Assembly (NCBI GenBank): GCA_903828455.1
Contig: CAIKMJ010000005.1
Span: forward strand, 1-64,000
From: an uncultured Acidobacteriia bacterium
GTDB lineage: Bacteria; Acidobacteriota; Terriglobia; Bryobacterales; Bryobacteraceae
Direction of reading: 5' to 3'
Length of the DNA stretch: 64,000 bases
Below are positions 25,952 through 29,774 of the stretch, piece after piece (the first letter of the stretch is position 1; each line of letters begins with the position of its first letter). The translations under genes and the position numbers were made by a program. Under the pieces are notes generated by a model. That model had not been told where the DNA came from and made no database searches. It saw nothing but the letters and a program-made list of their open reading frames with translations.

Positions 25952-27541
25952 TTACTTCTTCATCCGCTCCACAATAATTTTTCTGGCGTTATTCAGCAGA
26001 GCCTGTGCCTTCGGCATGGCTTCAATGGCCGCTTCCACTTCCGGATCGTTGCGGATGTCGTACTTACGGCTCTCATCCACGCTGAAGGCGGTCTTGTATA
26101 TTTCCGACTGAACGCGGCGGCGGACCCAGTCGTAATCCTTCGTGAAGTCGGCCTCGGTAAATTCCACTTTTTCCGAGAGCAGGAAGTCGTGGAAGGAATT
26201 CATTGTGGCCGTATCCACATTCCAGCCGGCCGGCAGGGGTTCGCGATGCGAGGCGAAGAAGTGCTTCGTGTAGTTCGAAAGTGAATAGGAGGTGATCATG
26301 AGCACCTCGAAGGCGTCCAGCTTCGGCGCCGTGTACTTTTCATCCGGCGAGATGCCGCCGCCGCCGTAAACCACGCGACCGCTGTCGGTGCTCTTCACGT
26401 CGGACATATTCCGCGCCGCGGTGTTGTTGCGGTAGTAGTAATCGAAGAACGAAGTGTTGCTGTAGTCGCGCTGGATCAGGCGGCCGCTCGGCGTGTAGTA
26501 CTTCGCCGTGGTCAGCGCGAGTCCGGTGTTTTCCACCAGCGGATAAACCGTTTGCACCAGACCCTTGCCGAAGGTGTTGTCTCCCAGAATCCAGGCGCGG
26601 TCATGATCCTGCAGGGAGCCGGACACGATCTCCGCAGCCGAAGCCGAGTTACGGTTCACCAGCACCACGATGGGGTAGTTGCGGCCCTTATTGCCATTGC
26701 GCGCCGTGTAAACGCGTTCGGCGGAGGAACGGCCCTTGTGGGAAACGATCACGTCGCCCTTGGGCAGGAAGTGATCGCCTACCGAAACGGCTTCGTTAAG
26801 AAGTCCGCCGGGATTGCCGCGCAGATCGAGCACCAGGCCTTTGAGCGAATCCTCATCCATGGCCTTGAGGGCTTCTTCCATTTCGTGGCTGGTAGTTTCG
26901 TTGAACTGTTCGAGGAAGACGTAGCCGATATTATTGCGAACGACGAAGGAGTCCGGCACGCTCTTGCGGTTGATTTCGTCGCGGATGATATTGAACGTCA
27001 GCGGGTCGTCGTTGCCTTCGCGCGCGATGCGGATGGTGACAGGAGTACCTTTCGGTCCTTTCAGCAGGTCGGCGACGTGGGTGGAATCGAGATTATCGGT
27101 GGACGTGCCGTTGACGGTGACGATCACGTCATTGGGACGAAGCCCAGCTTTATACGCTGGCGATCCGACAAACGGGGCGACAACGATGGTCTTGCCGTTA
27201 CGGCCGACCACCTGCATGCCTACTCCGTAATAATGCCCGCGCTGTTCTTCGCGGAGATTTTCCAGGTCCTTGGGGTCGAAGAAGTTGGAGTGCGGGTCGA
27301 GCGTGCGCAGCATGCCCGGGATGGCGCCCTTATAGATGGCTTTATCGGCGCTGACGGGGTCGGCGAAGTTCTGTTCCACGGTGGAATAAACCTTCGTGAA
27401 GGACTTCATGCTCTTGTTGATGTCGTCGTCGGCCGTGGCTGCGGACGCGACCGAAACACTGGGACCGTACAGCCCGCCAATTACGGCGGAACCGAGCACC
27501 AGCACCGGAATCAGCAACAAAGAGCGGCGATTATAAGCCAT
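25952..27541 (-). CDS. Carboxy-terminal processing protease (S41 family, CtpA/Prc-like)
   Basis: A 529-residue periplasmic serine protease. A signal or anchor helix (residues 7-24) is followed by an N-terminal helical part, a PDZ domain (about 105-190, YYGVGMQVVGRNGKTIVVAPFVGSPA split around the carboxylate-binding loop) and the S41 catalytic core with LVLDLRGNPGGLL, the serine motif NRNSASAAE (296-304) and Lys326 in FGKGLVQ, the Ser-Lys dyad of the family. It trims or degrades envelope proteins from the C-terminus. An IS-like element sits 48 bp upstream and on the same strand; its target site overlaps what could be the native -35 box. Confidence 0.95.
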   Translation of the reverse strand: MAYNRRSLLLIPVLVLGSAVIGGLYGPSVSVASAATADDDINKSMKSFTKVYSTVEQNFADPVSADKAIYKGAIPGMLRTLDPHSNFFDPKDLENLREEQRGHYYGVGMQVVGRNGKTIVVAPFVGSPAYKAGLRPNDVIVTVNGTSTDNLDSTHVADLLKGPKGTPVTIRIAREGNDDPLTFNIIRDEINRKSVPDSFVVRNNIGYVFLEQFNETTSHEMEEALKAMDEDSLKGLVLDLRGNPGGLLNEAVSVGDHFLPKGDVIVSHKGRSSAERVYTARNGNKGRNYPIVVLVNRNSASAAEIVSGSLQDHDRAWILGDNTFGKGLVQTVYPLVENTGLALTTAKYYTPSGRLIQRDYSNTSFFDYYYRNNTAARNMSDVKSTDSGRVVYGGGGISPDEKYTAPKLDAFEVLMITSYSLSNYTKHFFASHREPLPAGWNVDTATMNSFHDFLLSEKVEFTEADFTKDYDWVRRRVQSEIYKTAFSVDESRKYDIRNDPEVEAAIEAMPKAQALLNNARKIIVERMKK

Positions 27542-27588
27542 TGACGAAAACCCGTCCTTATACAGAAGTATAACAGCGATATGACAGG

Positions 27589-27596
27589 CCCCAGTG
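27589..27596. repeat. Target site duplication, left copy
   Basis: CCCCAGTG directly abuts the left end of the mobile element. The same eight bases follow the right end at 29767-29774. Eight-base duplications are typical of IS1-family insertion. Confidence 0.93.
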
Positions 27597-27621
27597 GGTA
27601 GTGTCCTAAATCTGCGTTGAT
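27597..27621 (+). repeat. Left terminal inverted repeat of the mobile element
   Basis: Twenty-five bases beginning GGTAGTGTCCTAAA, matching the complement of 29742-29766 with one mismatch (position 15). The last codons and the stop of the transposase gene lie inside it. Confidence 0.93.
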
Positions 27622-28571
27622 AGTAATTCTTCGATGCTCCACACGTGATCGGTGATTTCGTGAGCCATCGCAGGCGTCACGCGCAAAGACTTGTGAACAC
27701 GGCAGAAGTTGTAGTATGTGTACCAAAGCATCACGGCGGCCCAATGATTCTCCCACTTTTTTGAGAATCCATTCGTCAGCCGAGTAAAGCGGCGGCACCC
27801 CATACGAAGGCTTAGATTGCTGCGTTCGATAATGCTGGTGCAGATTCGTTCAGGATCGGGATTTCCGCAAACTGGGACCACCTCCACGGAGTCAACTTCG
27901 GCGGGTGAATACTTGCGCTCACCTTCCGGCGCGGCCCTATAGACTTTAATAAGCATCGCGTAATCGACGTTAGCGAATGTATCAGGGATGGCCGTTTTGT
28001 AGGGAGCAAACCCGTCGCTGGTGATCTGGAACGGTCCCGGCGCGATGGCGTCCCGCAACCCTTCGATGAATGCGTTGGTAGTCTGTTGATCGCGTTTTCC
28101 CATTGCTACGTTTAATACGAGCTTGCTGTTCCGCTCAATGGCCACGAAGGTGTATGCGTCACCGAGGTTCTGATCATCTTCCAGGCGCACGCGCTTTTCC
28201 TTCTTTCCGATGTAGGACCAAACTTCATCAACTTCTACGTCCTGTACCGGAACATTGCGAACGTATCGGCCCATAAATTTTTCTGCCTTTTCGCCAGCAG
28301 TCACCAGAAGGCGCAGGATAGTGTCACGGTGGATATTAGTGATCCGCTCCACCGAACGAACACTGGCACCTTCCAGCAGCATCCTGAGCGCAAGGACGGC
28401 CTTTTCCATCGGCACTGTCATCGTGCCGAGCGGCTTTTCGTGCGCTTCCGTGTAGGTCTTGCCGCATTGTCCACAACGAAACCGGCGAAGGCCATTGCGG
28501 TGCTTGCCGAATCCAGCGCAGCGAATCTCGCACGCGGGACAAATCATTGTTGCTTTGATGGCGGCTTTCAT
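27606..28571 (-). CDS. IS1-family-like transposase (single frame, DDE)
   Basis: A 321-residue transposase starting at ATG 28571. The N-terminus is a zinc ribbon (CPACEIRC then FRCGQCGKTYTE), followed by a helix-turn-helix (ASVRSVERITNIHRDTILRLL) and an RNase-H-like catalytic domain with the acid triad visible in VDEVWSYIGKK, TSDGFAPYKTA and IIERSNLSLRMGC, ending in the typical YNFCRVHKSLR block. Unlike IS1 itself it needs no frameshift. The gene ends inside the left inverted repeat (TQI-stop). A good promoter with a -10 box 6 bp before the start codon predicts a nearly leaderless mRNA. There is no terminator before the protease gene 64 bp downstream. Confidence 0.92.
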   Translation of the reverse strand: MKAAIKATMICPACEIRCAGFGKHRNGLRRFRCGQCGKTYTEAHEKPLGTMTVPMEKAVLALRMLLEGASVRSVERITNIHRDTILRLLVTAGEKAEKFMGRYVRNVPVQDVEVDEVWSYIGKKEKRVRLEDDQNLGDAYTFVAIERNSKLVLNVAMGKRDQQTTNAFIEGLRDAIAPGPFQITSDGFAPYKTAIPDTFANVDYAMLIKVYRAAPEGERKYSPAEVDSVEVVPVCGNPDPERICTSIIERSNLSLRMGCRRFTRLTNGFSKKWENHWAAVMLWYTYYNFCRVHKSLRVTPAMAHEITDHVWSIEELLSTQI

Positions 28572-28577
28572 GTATTC

Positions 28578-28606
28578 ATAATACAGCAAGCGGTTGCTGT
28601 TATCAA
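28578..28606 (-). promoter_or_regulatory. Transposase promoter with palindromic operator in the spacer
   Basis: On the minus strand, TTGATA (28606-28601) and TATTAT (28583-28578) are separated by exactly 17 bp. The spacer and first -10 base form an inverted repeat, ACAGCAACCGCTTGCTGT (arms of 7 bp around 4 bp). The start codon follows 6 bp after the -10 box, so transcription should begin at or next to the ATG. The -10 box lies within a second short inverted repeat (TGTATT/AATACA). A repressor on the spacer palindrome would shut the promoter; the winged-helix protein of the element is the obvious candidate. Confidence 0.75.
28587..28601 (-). repeat. 15-bp repeated motif before the transposase gene
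   Basis: On the minus strand this reads AACAGCAACCGCTTG. The identical 15 bases occur at 29710-29724, in the same orientation and also just upstream of a gene start (the AT-hook-like protein). In this copy the motif is part of a perfect-armed palindrome; in the other copy the second arm is degraded. Confidence 0.8.
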
Positions 28607-28663
28607 GGGGTATTGAGGAATTTAGGTGAACTGTGTTAAACTGCGACTGGATAATGAATGAGG

Positions 28664-28696
28664 CCCGGAGCCTGAGTACACCTCGTAGGCTCCGGG
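28664..28696. repeat. Hairpin between the small frame and the transposase
   Basis: Perfect 10-bp arms, CCCGGAGCCT (28664-28673) and AGGCTCCGGG (28687-28696), with a 13-bp loop. Neither side has a T tract, so a classical terminator is not supported; it could block read-through or act in the RNA upstream of the transposase. Confidence 0.6.
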
Positions 28697-28711
28697 ATTC
28701 CAATTAAGGCC

Positions 28712-28804
28712 TTACGCCGTTAATGGGATTTCGATGGTAACAACGCAATCGCCGATCTGTACTCGGACGATAAGCATCCATCCCCTCGTTTTAGAAGTAG
28801 CCAT
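28712..28804 (-). CDS. Possible 30-residue protein in the mobile element
   Basis: A short frame starting ATGGCTACT at 28804 and ending TAA at 28712 encodes a 30-residue peptide with a basic start (MATSKTRGWML) and a beta-like hydrophobic remainder (IVRVQIGDCVVTIEIPL). AGGAG lies about 10 bp upstream of this ATG, but it is only 2 bp from another ATG at 28814 in a different frame, so the start is uncertain. It sits in the only gap of the element large enough for another gene. No family is recognised; it may be chance. Confidence 0.35.
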   Translation of the reverse strand: MATSKTRGWMLIVRVQIGDCVVTIEIPLTA

Positions 28805-28830
28805 ATATGCATGGCTCCTTTCTTTGGAAT

Positions 28831-28870
28831 AGCCTTCAGCGCGTCAACGCTGAAGGCTTTCTGCTTTTTA
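28831..28870 (+). terminator. Hairpin with T tract facing against the element's genes
   Basis: An 11-bp perfect stem, AGCCTTCAGCG (28831-28841) and CGCTGAAGGCT (28848-28858), is followed on the plus strand by TTCTGCTTTTT. All genes of the element run on the minus strand, so this would stop antisense transcription rather than the gene transcripts. The minus-strand side is not T-rich. Confidence 0.65.
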
Positions 28871-28881
28871 TGGCAGAAACC

Positions 28882-29289
28882 TCACCCCGGCAATGTCTGC
28901 TCAGTCTGCGCCGCTCGCATCCTGAAGCCATTGCGGGAAAAATCTGTTACGTCCCAATAACCATTCTCTAGCTGGATGAAGAAATTCTTGTCGTTAAGGC
29001 AGTAGCTAACGGTTCCCTCTGGAAGCCCCGCTCGCTTAACAATGTCGGAACGCGACATGGGACCGTGGCTGATTAGAAATGCAGCCAGAGCTTCTTTACG
29101 GGGGATTTGCGGGCCATGTATAGGCACAGCAGAAGGTGTTGGCGATGTCACGGACTTAGGAATACGGGATGAAGCATAACCTTGCTCAATGATTCCAAAT
29201 GCCTGCGCCAATTGATTGCGAACCTCTTGGAGGGACTTTATTTTCTTGTCGATAATCTCAACCGCTCGCTGGATGTCGGGGTCGCCCAT
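28882..29289 (-). CDS. Winged-helix protein of the mobile element
   Basis: A 135-residue protein. Residues 1-37 form an amphipathic, probably coiled-coil helix (AVEIIDKKIKSLQEVRNQLAQ); a proline/serine-rich linker follows (about 42-60); residues 62-118 read as a winged helix-turn-helix (KEALAAFLISHGPMSRSDIVKRAG then EGTVSYCLN, with a wing at FIQLENGYWDVTD). The design suits a dimeric DNA-binding regulator. AGGAG lies 12 bp upstream of the ATG, and the start codon is in one arm of an inverted repeat (29287-29328). Because it is inside an intact element it is probably a regulator of transposition, but this is inference. Confidence 0.75.
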   Translation of the reverse strand: MGDPDIQRAVEIIDKKIKSLQEVRNQLAQAFGIIEQGYASSRIPKSVTSPTPSAVPIHGPQIPRKEALAAFLISHGPMSRSDIVKRAGLPEGTVSYCLNDKNFFIQLENGYWDVTDFSRNGFRMRAAQTEQTLPG

Positions 29290-29328
29290 CTGTGTTATGA
29301 ACTCCTATTTGGGATATTAGCACAGATG
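29287..29328 (-). promoter_or_regulatory. Inverted repeat that can hide the start codon of the winged-helix gene
   Basis: CATCTGTG (29287-29294) and CACAGATG (29321-29328) are perfect complements; the second arm in mRNA sense contains the AUG, and the AGGAG ribosome site is in the loop. A possible -10 box, TAATAT (29319-29314 on the minus strand), lies between the arms, so a transcript begun there would lack the 5' arm, while read-through RNA from outside would fold and hide the start. This is the logic of IS10/IS50 protection from outside transcription. Confidence 0.55.
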
Positions 29329-29330
29329 TA

Positions 29331-29376
29331 GATGGGAGTCCATCTGAAGCAAGATGGACTCCCATCGTGTTTTCGC
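29331..29376 (+). terminator. Long hairpin with T-rich side facing against the element's genes
   Basis: A perfect 15-bp stem, GATGGGAGTCCATCT (29331-29345) and its complement (29352-29366), with a 6-base loop, is followed on the plus strand by GTGTTTTCGCCTTTTT. It lies between the AT-hook-like gene and the winged-helix gene. Like the hairpin at 28831 it would terminate plus-strand, that is antisense, transcription. Confidence 0.65.
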
Positions 29377-29392
29377 CTTTTTATGCCCGTAC

Positions 29393-29689
29393 CTAATTTA
29401 GACCGGGATGTTTGCGGGGCCGTCCGCCCTTACGGTTTTTCCTCATGGCCGCGATTTGGGCGAAATATTCCGGCCCGCGCTCTGCCGTCTTCGATCCACC
29501 CTTCGCGCCAAGTGCGACGGCGGGATTCACAGTTGCCAATTCAGCAGCGAGGGCCAGCGCGGCATTTAGTGATTCCCGAGCGGAAGCGATGGATGGATGA
29601 GGATTCTGGATCGTGGCTAAGACTAGATCAGCTTGATTGATGAGGCGACGGAGAGCTTTCAGGTCACGACGGTTCGATGGGCTTGCCAT
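29393..29689 (-). CDS. Small basic AT-hook-like protein of the mobile element
   Basis: A 98-residue protein from ATG 29689; the frame stays open upstream to a TTG at the edge of the right inverted repeat (29746). The N-terminal half is helical (RRDLKALRRLINQADLVLAT), and the C-terminus is GSKTAERGPEYFAQIAAMRK followed by RKGGRPRKHPGLN. The GGRPRKH core matches the AT-hook consensus (GRP flanked by basic residues), which binds the minor groove of AT-rich DNA. A repeated 15-bp motif is 20 bp upstream of the start. A role as accessory DNA-bending or regulatory factor for transposition is inferred only. Confidence 0.7.
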   Translation of the reverse strand: MASPSNRRDLKALRRLINQADLVLATIQNPHPSIASARESLNAALALAAELATVNPAVALGAKGGSKTAERGPEYFAQIAAMRKNRKGGRPRKHPGLN

Positions 29690-29709
29690 GTAACCATCGT
29701 AACCTGAAA

Positions 29710-29724
29710 CAAGCGGTTGCTGTT
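29710..29724 (-). repeat. 15-bp repeated motif before the AT-hook-like gene
   Basis: Identical to 28587-28601 and in the same orientation (AACAGCAACCGCTTG on the minus strand), 20 bp upstream of ATG 29689. No convincing -35/-10 pair is built around this copy, so the shared motif may be a binding site rather than a promoter part. Confidence 0.75.
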
Positions 29725-29741
29725 TAGGTAAAGAAAATTCG

Positions 29742-29766
29742 ATCAACGCAGGTTTAGGACACTACC
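29742..29766 (-). repeat. Right terminal inverted repeat of the mobile element
   Basis: Complement of the left end (27597-27621) over 25 bases with one mismatch. It ends in GGACACTACC next to the right target duplication. Confidence 0.93.
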
Positions 29767-29774
29767 CCCCAGTG
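29767..29774. repeat. Target site duplication, right copy
   Basis: CCCCAGTG, identical to 27589-27596, directly after the right inverted repeat. Confidence 0.93.

Follow-up and report, generated by a model that had tools for sequence, protein, structure and literature searches.

The stretch of DNA analysed here (the window) comprises the first 64,000 nucleotides of contig CAIKMJ010000005.1 from an uncultured Acidobacteriia bacterium and contains an insertion element with an IS1-type transposase and two passenger genes, one for a small basic protein (p3) and one for a protein with a predicted winged helix (p2). Our favoured reading, to which we assign a probability of about 0.6, is that this is a passenger-carrying element of the IS1 family in which p3 is a plug-in repressor module that sets transposase synthesis, replacing the InsA protein and the frameshift of classical IS1. 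Judged from sequence comparisons, p3 probably switches the transposase off. The product of the first gene inside one end, it would be a small basic DNA-binding protein recognizing one palindrome at two places, ahead of the p3 gene and in the -35/-10 spacer of the transposase promoter, a putatively strong promoter driving a leaderless mRNA. In a new host cell lacking p3 the transposase would be made in a burst and the element would insert; p3 would then accumulate, and both the p3 and the transposase genes would be shut off. An earlier note on this DNA had proposed a self-controlled transposon with the passengers as built-in regulators or DNA-bending factors. The idea of self-control appears best supported for p3 only, by matched sites and by a position linked to the element end; it was not supported for p2, which occurs in only 8 of 35 elements.

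The element, its transposase and its relatives

The element is 2170 bp long (27597-29766) and is flanked by a perfect 8-bp target duplication, CCCCAGTG, at 27589-27596 and 29767-29774. The inverted ends were detected as 33-nt arms (27596-27628 and 29735-29767) that are 88% complementary; the outermost base of each arm is part of the target duplication, and within the element the repeats are about 32 nt long. The element ends are GGTAGTG. The IS1 family is defined by target duplications of 8-9 bp and ends of the form GGnnnTG, and the window element, with ends beginning GG...TG and its 8-bp duplication, resembles classical IS1 in both. All three long genes lie on the minus strand, the order from the p3 end being end, p3, p2, transposase, end. 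Thus the earlier description of an intact element of about 2.2 kb, with visible inverted ends and an identical duplication, carrying an IS1-type transposase and two DNA-binding-looking passengers on one strand, proved correct. Searches of the 4.4-Mb, 80-contig genome found one copy by DNA and one by protein. Going by the perfect duplication, a recent insertion is plausible. The empty site that the earlier note suggested looking for was not found at base level: in six same-genus stretches, two of them short, the neighbouring S41-like gene was present, the transposase was absent and the intergenic DNA had diverged, and genes from the other side of the element were not found in them.

The transposase matched the Pfam family PF03400 (DDE_Tnp_IS1) with 28.3 bits, above the cutoff of 24.1, and the NCBIfam model NF033558 (transpos_IS1) with 93.3 bits, just below the cutoff of 100. 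A sequence search of solved structures gave one match only, with an E value of 0.56. The residues that we take, on family knowledge, to be the DDE active site were kept in the aligned rows, window included (D115 in 96% of 57, D186 in 98% of 59 and E249 in 100% of 59). The coding sequence is a single continuous frame of 321 codons. The overlapping insA/insB' frames with a -1 frameshift, an arrangement not universal in the IS1 family, are not present. Since there is no separate InsA frame and no frameshift is needed, a separate repressor would fit.

A scan of genome contigs yielded 20 relatives, labelled Terriglobia, Bryobacterales, Acidobacteria and similar, and the transposase was matched in 46 of the 121 genomes of the window's taxonomic family; 54 stretches were fetched around the better matches. 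Loci were counted as complete elements if they had GGTAGT-type ends on both sides and an exact duplication of at least 8 bp, those without two such ends being left uncounted. The 77 loci given included 76 with a transposase match, and 38 passed the rule. Removal of the duplicates L008, L011 and L014 (identical with L060, L062 and L064) left 35 elements; L006, L007, L010 and L017 were dropped as further duplicates in the promoter, tree and tRNA-scan sets. The rule found more than chance would: its 8-bp form admitted 37 of the 76 transposase loci, compared with a single locus for one of 20 permuted hexamers and no locus for the other 19. The search for relatives sharing the ends, also proposed earlier, thus gave 35 elements with both ends and a duplication, 27 of them with a small basic protein. 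They range from 1613 to 6267 bp, and none is as short as a bare transposase unit. The window element, with transposase, p3 and p2, is a minimal form.

Two end types were distinguished, A (GGTAGTGTCCTAAA..TGCGTTGA and variants, the window's type) and B (GGTAGTGGGTCAGTTTGAA), which the transposase tree separates with good support. L065 and L072, placed in B by the end-sequence rule, were moved to A because their transposases group with A in the tree, changing the counts of A and B from 16 and 19 to 18 and 17. L071 (6267 bp) may not be one element, the duplication of L016 is 10 bp, and the transposases of L016, L019, L088, L102 and L108 are broken or partial. Type-B ends with 8-bp duplications were also found on plasmids of Acidiphilium, Mesorhizobium and Hoeflea, whereas on a Methylocapsa plasmid one end only was seen. 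The alphaproteobacterial plasmid elements with two ends and 8-bp duplications are L148:2231-4864, L149:1760-5129 and L150:1522-5745; among the products of L149 are a KGG protein, given the label histone H1, and a helix-turn-helix protein resembling M78 by eye.

The small protein p3 and the matched palindromes

In five relatives p3 is 41-53% identical to the window protein, and 20 columns are invariant across the six sequences, including the KGG motif and a GGRP.K tail, which we liken to the core of an AT-hook. No p3 reached a family cutoff, either in Pfam (window, L009, L015 and L063) or in NCBIfam (window, L015 and L063); the window protein had only two sub-threshold matches, to unrelated models (E about 0.02). 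Among solved structures, sequence searches matched p3 only to designed alpha-repeat and transporter proteins, with E values of 0.015 or worse.

A profile search of the 121 family genomes for p3 gave 22 rows from 18 genomes; since one gene was divided between two rows, these represent 21 genes. All 16 genes whose match reached model position 1-4 had, at a distance of 59-103 nt upstream, an element-type end with no more than 3 mismatches in 13. Among 4020 random 140-nt stretches taken from loci of this kind, 126 (3%) contained such a motif. Of the five N-terminally incomplete remnants, one had an end at 1 mismatch, two had 4-mismatch matches only and two had no end. In a phylum sample of 396 genomes only two had a p3 match (E<=0.001), namely the genome of the window and G289, which belongs to the same family, and on plasmids no match was found at E 0.01. 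The earlier note had named a common occurrence of the passenger genes outside such elements as evidence against it. For p3 this was not what was observed, and the view of p3 as a common host protein was rejected on its end-linked position in the family genomes and its rarity in the phylum sample. Two p3-bearing derivatives with both ends and exact 8-bp duplications, L135:4911-7429 with a transposase remnant and L137:3493-5359 with no transposase match, are non-autonomous carriers or decayed copies.

Either p3 or another small protein of KGG type was found in 27 of the 35 elements, 10 of the 18 of type A (the p3 matches in L019, L066 and L102 being partial) and all 17 of type B; the profiles used were built partly from the same proteins that were later counted. 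On a Mesorhizobium plasmid element the small KGG protein is annotated as histone H1. A KGG-type motif also occurs at the N-terminus of P63C-domain proteins inside elements (L093:3835-4830 and L096:3753-4901), and by eye a similar-looking remnant stands at the start of the L019 element. This suggests where the small proteins may have originated.

A site of the TTGACA/TATAAT type ending 5-8 nt before the ATG or GTG of the transposase was present in 36 of 65 loci, compared with 1.3% of 1300 shuffles. Since the promoter in the window ends 6 nt before the ATG, the transcript would be expected to start at about the start codon and to be leaderless. A promoter was found in 23 of the 27 elements with a small protein and in one of the eight without (Fisher P 3e-4, from a hand-made table uncorrected for kinship). 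In a transposase clade of 12 rows promoter matches were confined to L062 (with p3), L068 (with a KGG protein) and L060 (with no small protein).

The palindrome in the promoter spacer is good in five elements, namely the window element, L015, L026, L062 and L066 (7 or 8 of 8 arm positions), and less good elsewhere. Among the 24 elements with a promoter site there were six in which a second copy of the spacer was reached by at most 1 of 100 shuffles. This copy is located upstream of p3 in the window, L015, L026 and L062, and upstream of the divergent KGG gene in L066 and L071. The KGG gene is also divergent to the transposase in L067, L068 and L074, and in all five of these elements a similar site precedes it; in L067, L071 and L074 the site can by eye be taken for a promoter spacer, the promoter ending 6 nt ahead of the ATG of the KGG gene. 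The pairing of the sites was assessed by a permutation test with the transposase promoter masked, covering the 11 elements in which both parts had been identified by eye, with type B outside the test. Spacers were on average 0.82 identical to the region upstream of the regulator gene in their own element, compared with 0.66 for other elements of the same type, and the own region was best or joint best in nine of the 11 (P 1e-5 overall, 9e-5 within type).

In L060, L062, L067, L071 and L074 the start codon after the promoter opens, by eye, a leader with a GCCCCG..CGGGGC hairpin. In L062 this leader is out of frame with the transposase, possibly reflecting translational control or a frameshift.

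Competing explanations

The N-terminal DNA-binding part of the transposase could also be what binds the palindrome, making the transposase autoregulatory; p3 would then be a bystander, or a co-factor of transposition bending or coating the DNA close to the end. Every autonomous element has a transposase, p3 adjoins an end, is basic and has an AT-hook-like tail, and in classical IS1 the repressor InsA shares the DNA-binding domain of the transposase. We nevertheless consider this explanation unlikely, because among related transposases the site tracks p3 (both are present in L062, and its clade neighbours L012, L016 and L059 have neither promoter match nor p3) and because both copies of the site in the window are outside the terminal repeats. 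A different possibility is that p3 and p2 are chance cargo of an ordinary transporter insertion sequence (IS), with no part in the control of transposition. The cargo of the lineage is indeed very diverse, including toxin-antitoxin-like, metalloprotease-like and nucleotide-metabolism genes, and p3 or KGG proteins are absent from eight of the 35 elements. This is improbable given the constant position of p3 and its constant distance from the end, its confinement in the phylum sample to two genomes of one family, and the sites matched to the transposase promoter, which random cargo would not be expected to have.

Least probable of the alternatives, in our judgement, is that p2 is the regulator and p3 has some other role. 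A predicted winged helix would suit this function, in the eight elements with p2 no same-strand gene lies closer to the transposase on its upstream side (as judged from the lists of open reading frames, ORFs), and the window has a perfect 15-bp inverted repeat 41 nt ahead of p2. Matched palindromes occur, however, without p2 (L026 and L071, more weakly L009 and L063), the p2-bearing but p3-less L064, L065, L070 and L072 lack such a promoter, and the p2 group was picked by hand and is divergent, with 11-29% identity to the window protein. As the main reading, p2 as a general regulator was rejected because matched sites occur without it.

Several observations weigh against p3 as the repressor. 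We infer its binding to the sites, and repression by that binding, from sequence comparison. The predicted structure of p3 is of low confidence (mean predicted local distance difference test score, pLDDT, of 64) and has no recognisable DNA-binding fold. The similarity between p3 and the KGG proteins is confined to about 22 columns (hhalign probability 51%), and the two may be analogues rather than one family. Promoter-like sites in the window element alone were no more frequent than chance (2 found, 2.0 expected). L009 and L063 have weak second sites, reached by 71 and 30 of 100 shuffles, and both fail the permutation test. Of the 15 type-B elements, ten had a non-significant second copy; in the other five (at most 2 of 100 shuffles) the copy is unconvincing as a second operator, because in L087, L088 and L099 it lies at or over the KGG start codon and in L090 and L095 it lies at the element's far end. 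L060 has a promoter without a small protein, and in its clade of 12 rows L058 and L061 have little upstream sequence. Conversely, L091, L092, L019 (a fragment only of the small protein) and L102 have a small protein without a promoter. Related elements are not independent, and the P values are consequently optimistic. Two further points reduce our confidence in p3 as repressor and in the wider generalization given below, and make chance cargo slightly more probable: accessory genes with regulatory roles are already recognised in ISs, and type B does not show the second-site pattern.

Other features, cargo and comparison with known elements

Features of the window element and tRNA-like genes of its relatives are listed in Table 1. 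A minus-strand gene at 25952-27541 has its start codon about 50 bp from the insertion point, which lies on the upstream side of the gene (27542-27596). By eye the gene product resembles peptidases of the S41/CtpA type, and the element may affect the promoter of this gene.

Table 1. Positions of features in the window and of tRNA-like genes in related loci
Feature	Position	Strand	Basis
Target-site duplication CCCCAGTG, copy 1	27589..27596		identical to 29767-29774
Terminal inverted repeat, transposase end (GGTAGTGTCCTAAATCTGCGTTGATAG...)	27597..27628	+	inverted-repeat search
IS1-type one-ORF transposase, 321 amino acids from ATG 28571, Cys-rich (zinc-ribbon-like) N-terminal part, D115/D186/E249	27606..28571	-	ORF list, profile matches
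Promoter-like site of transposase, TTGATA-N17-TATTAT, ends 6 nt before ATG	28578..28606	-	promoter scan
Operator-like palindrome CAGCAAccgcTTGCTG in promoter spacer	28584..28599	-	site comparison
Possible 30-codon ORF, AGGAG upstream, between p2 and transposase	28712..28804	-	by eye
11-bp hairpin downstream of p2	28831..28858		hairpin scan
p2, long N-terminal helix (coiled coil) and winged helix, 135 amino acids	28882..29289	-	ORF list, AlphaFold (mean pLDDT 62)
Perfect 15-bp inverted repeat between p3 and p2	29331..29366		inverted-repeat and hairpin scans
p3, small basic protein, KGG motif and AT-hook-like GGRPRK tail, 98 amino acids from ATG (117 from upstream TTG)	29393..29689	-	ORF list, alignment
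Operator core, second copy AACAGCAACCGCTTG, upstream of p3	29710..29724	-	15-nt exact direct repeat
Terminal inverted repeat, p3 end	29735..29766	-	inverted-repeat search
Target-site duplication CCCCAGTG, copy 2	29767..29774		sequence
tRNA-like, inside complete elements	L012:2790-2875; L013:2780-2874; L063:6153-6326 (two); L062:2998-3089; L015; L102; weakly L072:6057-6127		
tRNA-like, close to a transposase for which two ends were not found	L059:1795-1882; L058:1-74 (cut by contig end); L068:6285-6361; L075:7088-7176		

p2 had sub-threshold family matches only, mostly to helix-turn-helix models. With its low-confidence model Foldseek gave no match at E<=0.001, many of the low-ranking matches being winged-helix proteins. 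In the eight elements that have them, p2-like proteins are encoded on the same strand as the transposase, about 120-540 nt upstream of it. p2 is probably a second DNA-binding accessory protein. The 15-bp inverted repeat in front of it could be a p2 operator or a terminator. In the gap between p2 and the transposase, both the window and L066 have by eye an ORF of about 30 codons preceded by GAAAGGAGC; the two sequences differ.

The cargo of the relatives was surveyed with Pfam on 30 of the 97 ORFs of 90 amino acids or more from complete elements, six of the 30 being p2-like. The families found included some of the nucleotide-metabolism type (thymidylate kinase in L060, dCTP deaminase-like in L062) and toxin-antitoxin-like (Gp49 in L016, MqsA-like in L064, PemK in L094); Xre with M78 protease was found in L026, which also matches PADLOC RmrA, and in L071, and an Xre-type helix-turn-helix with DUF3467 in L013. 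Others were DUF3800 (L082 and L096), P63C (L093 and L096), a proteasome-like protein (L087) and Schlafen AlbA_2 (L108); an AAA_16 match in L060 was just below the cutoff. None of these families was matched in the window element.

Unexpectedly, several relatives carry tRNA or tRNA-like genes, some resembling allo-tRNAs, as detected with ARAGORN, Rfam RF00005 and a structure scan, the latter finding them in 4 of 68 upstream regions and in none of 340 shuffles. In the window element ARAGORN found no tRNA, and the Rfam scan gave a single sub-threshold match (E 0.59). The gene ends about 75-150 nt before the transposase in L012, L013, L015, L058, L059 and L063 (weakly in L072) and is placed elsewhere in L062, L068, L075 and L102. 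The anticodon is UUA, which would read UAA, in L059, L063 and L075, and the anticodon loops of L058, L063 and L068 have 6 or 8 nt. Since L012, L013 and L059 have neither promoter match nor p3 or KGG protein, the tRNA might be an alternative control module in these elements.

A wider generalization, which we put forward tentatively and would rather bet against than on, is that an IS1-family lineage of Acidobacteriota and alphaproteobacterial plasmids dropped InsA and the frameshift for exchangeable modules ahead of the transposase. One kind of module would be a dedicated small basic repressor of p3 or KGG type, working with leaderless promoters and with palindromic operators particular to each element; the other would be a tRNA or allo-tRNA-like gene. 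Each element would have a private immunity specificity, and the odd allo-tRNAs of Acidobacteria would partly be parts of these elements.

In classical IS1 the first frame gives InsA and the transposase arises by a rare -1 frameshift, both from one weak promoter on which InsA acts as a strong repressor, the promoter being its own (PMC12428005). The window element shares with it a DDE transposase with the IS1 signature (PF03400 above cutoff, NF033558 just below) and a small protein, here the putative repressor, from the first gene beside one end. It differs in its one-ORF transposase without a separate InsA frame, in its length (2.2 kb compared with 768 bp), in p3, which is below the cutoff of every family model, and in a separate near-consensus transposase promoter. 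The ISMhu11 group of the IS1 family has members of several kb; a literature search of limited coverage found no paper naming it. Passenger genes unrelated to transposition are known from 'transporter ISs' (Siguier, Gagnevin and Chandler 2009, as cited in PMC3129680), and PMC3129680 and PMC7986276 mention IS accessory genes, in the former as often regulatory, and passenger-bearing insertion sequences. Like transporter ISs the window element carries its passengers, p3 and p2, between the ends; for p3, sites matched to the transposase promoter argue against a passenger unrelated to transposition. The earlier suggestion that this type of element had not been described is thus doubtful.

The Tn3 family is a transposon family different from IS1. 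Tn3-family transposons with toxin-antitoxin pairs (PMC7157771) are similar in that the passengers are part of the transposon, and relatives of the window element have Gp49-, MqsA-, PemK- or Xre/M78-type genes; in the window element itself, by contrast, no toxin-antitoxin pair was recognised. The literature search, with limited coverage of subscription papers and with ISfinder outside it, recognised no description of this lineage or of a p3-like repressor. Passenger-carrying ISs are already known as a kind, of which an IS1-type element with a p3 module and matched operator-like sites would be a variant.

How small transposons restrain themselves from killing their host is a basic question, for which IS1 with InsA and its frameshift is the textbook case. 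The present analysis points to a likely function for a group of proteins that, in the members tested, reach no Pfam or NCBIfam cutoff, in a lineage that often carries toxin-antitoxin-like, metalloprotease-like and tRNA genes. IS1 relatives that appear to use a separate repressor and element-specific operators instead would allow a direct test of whether the coexistence of elements in one genome is governed by the specificity of their repressors.

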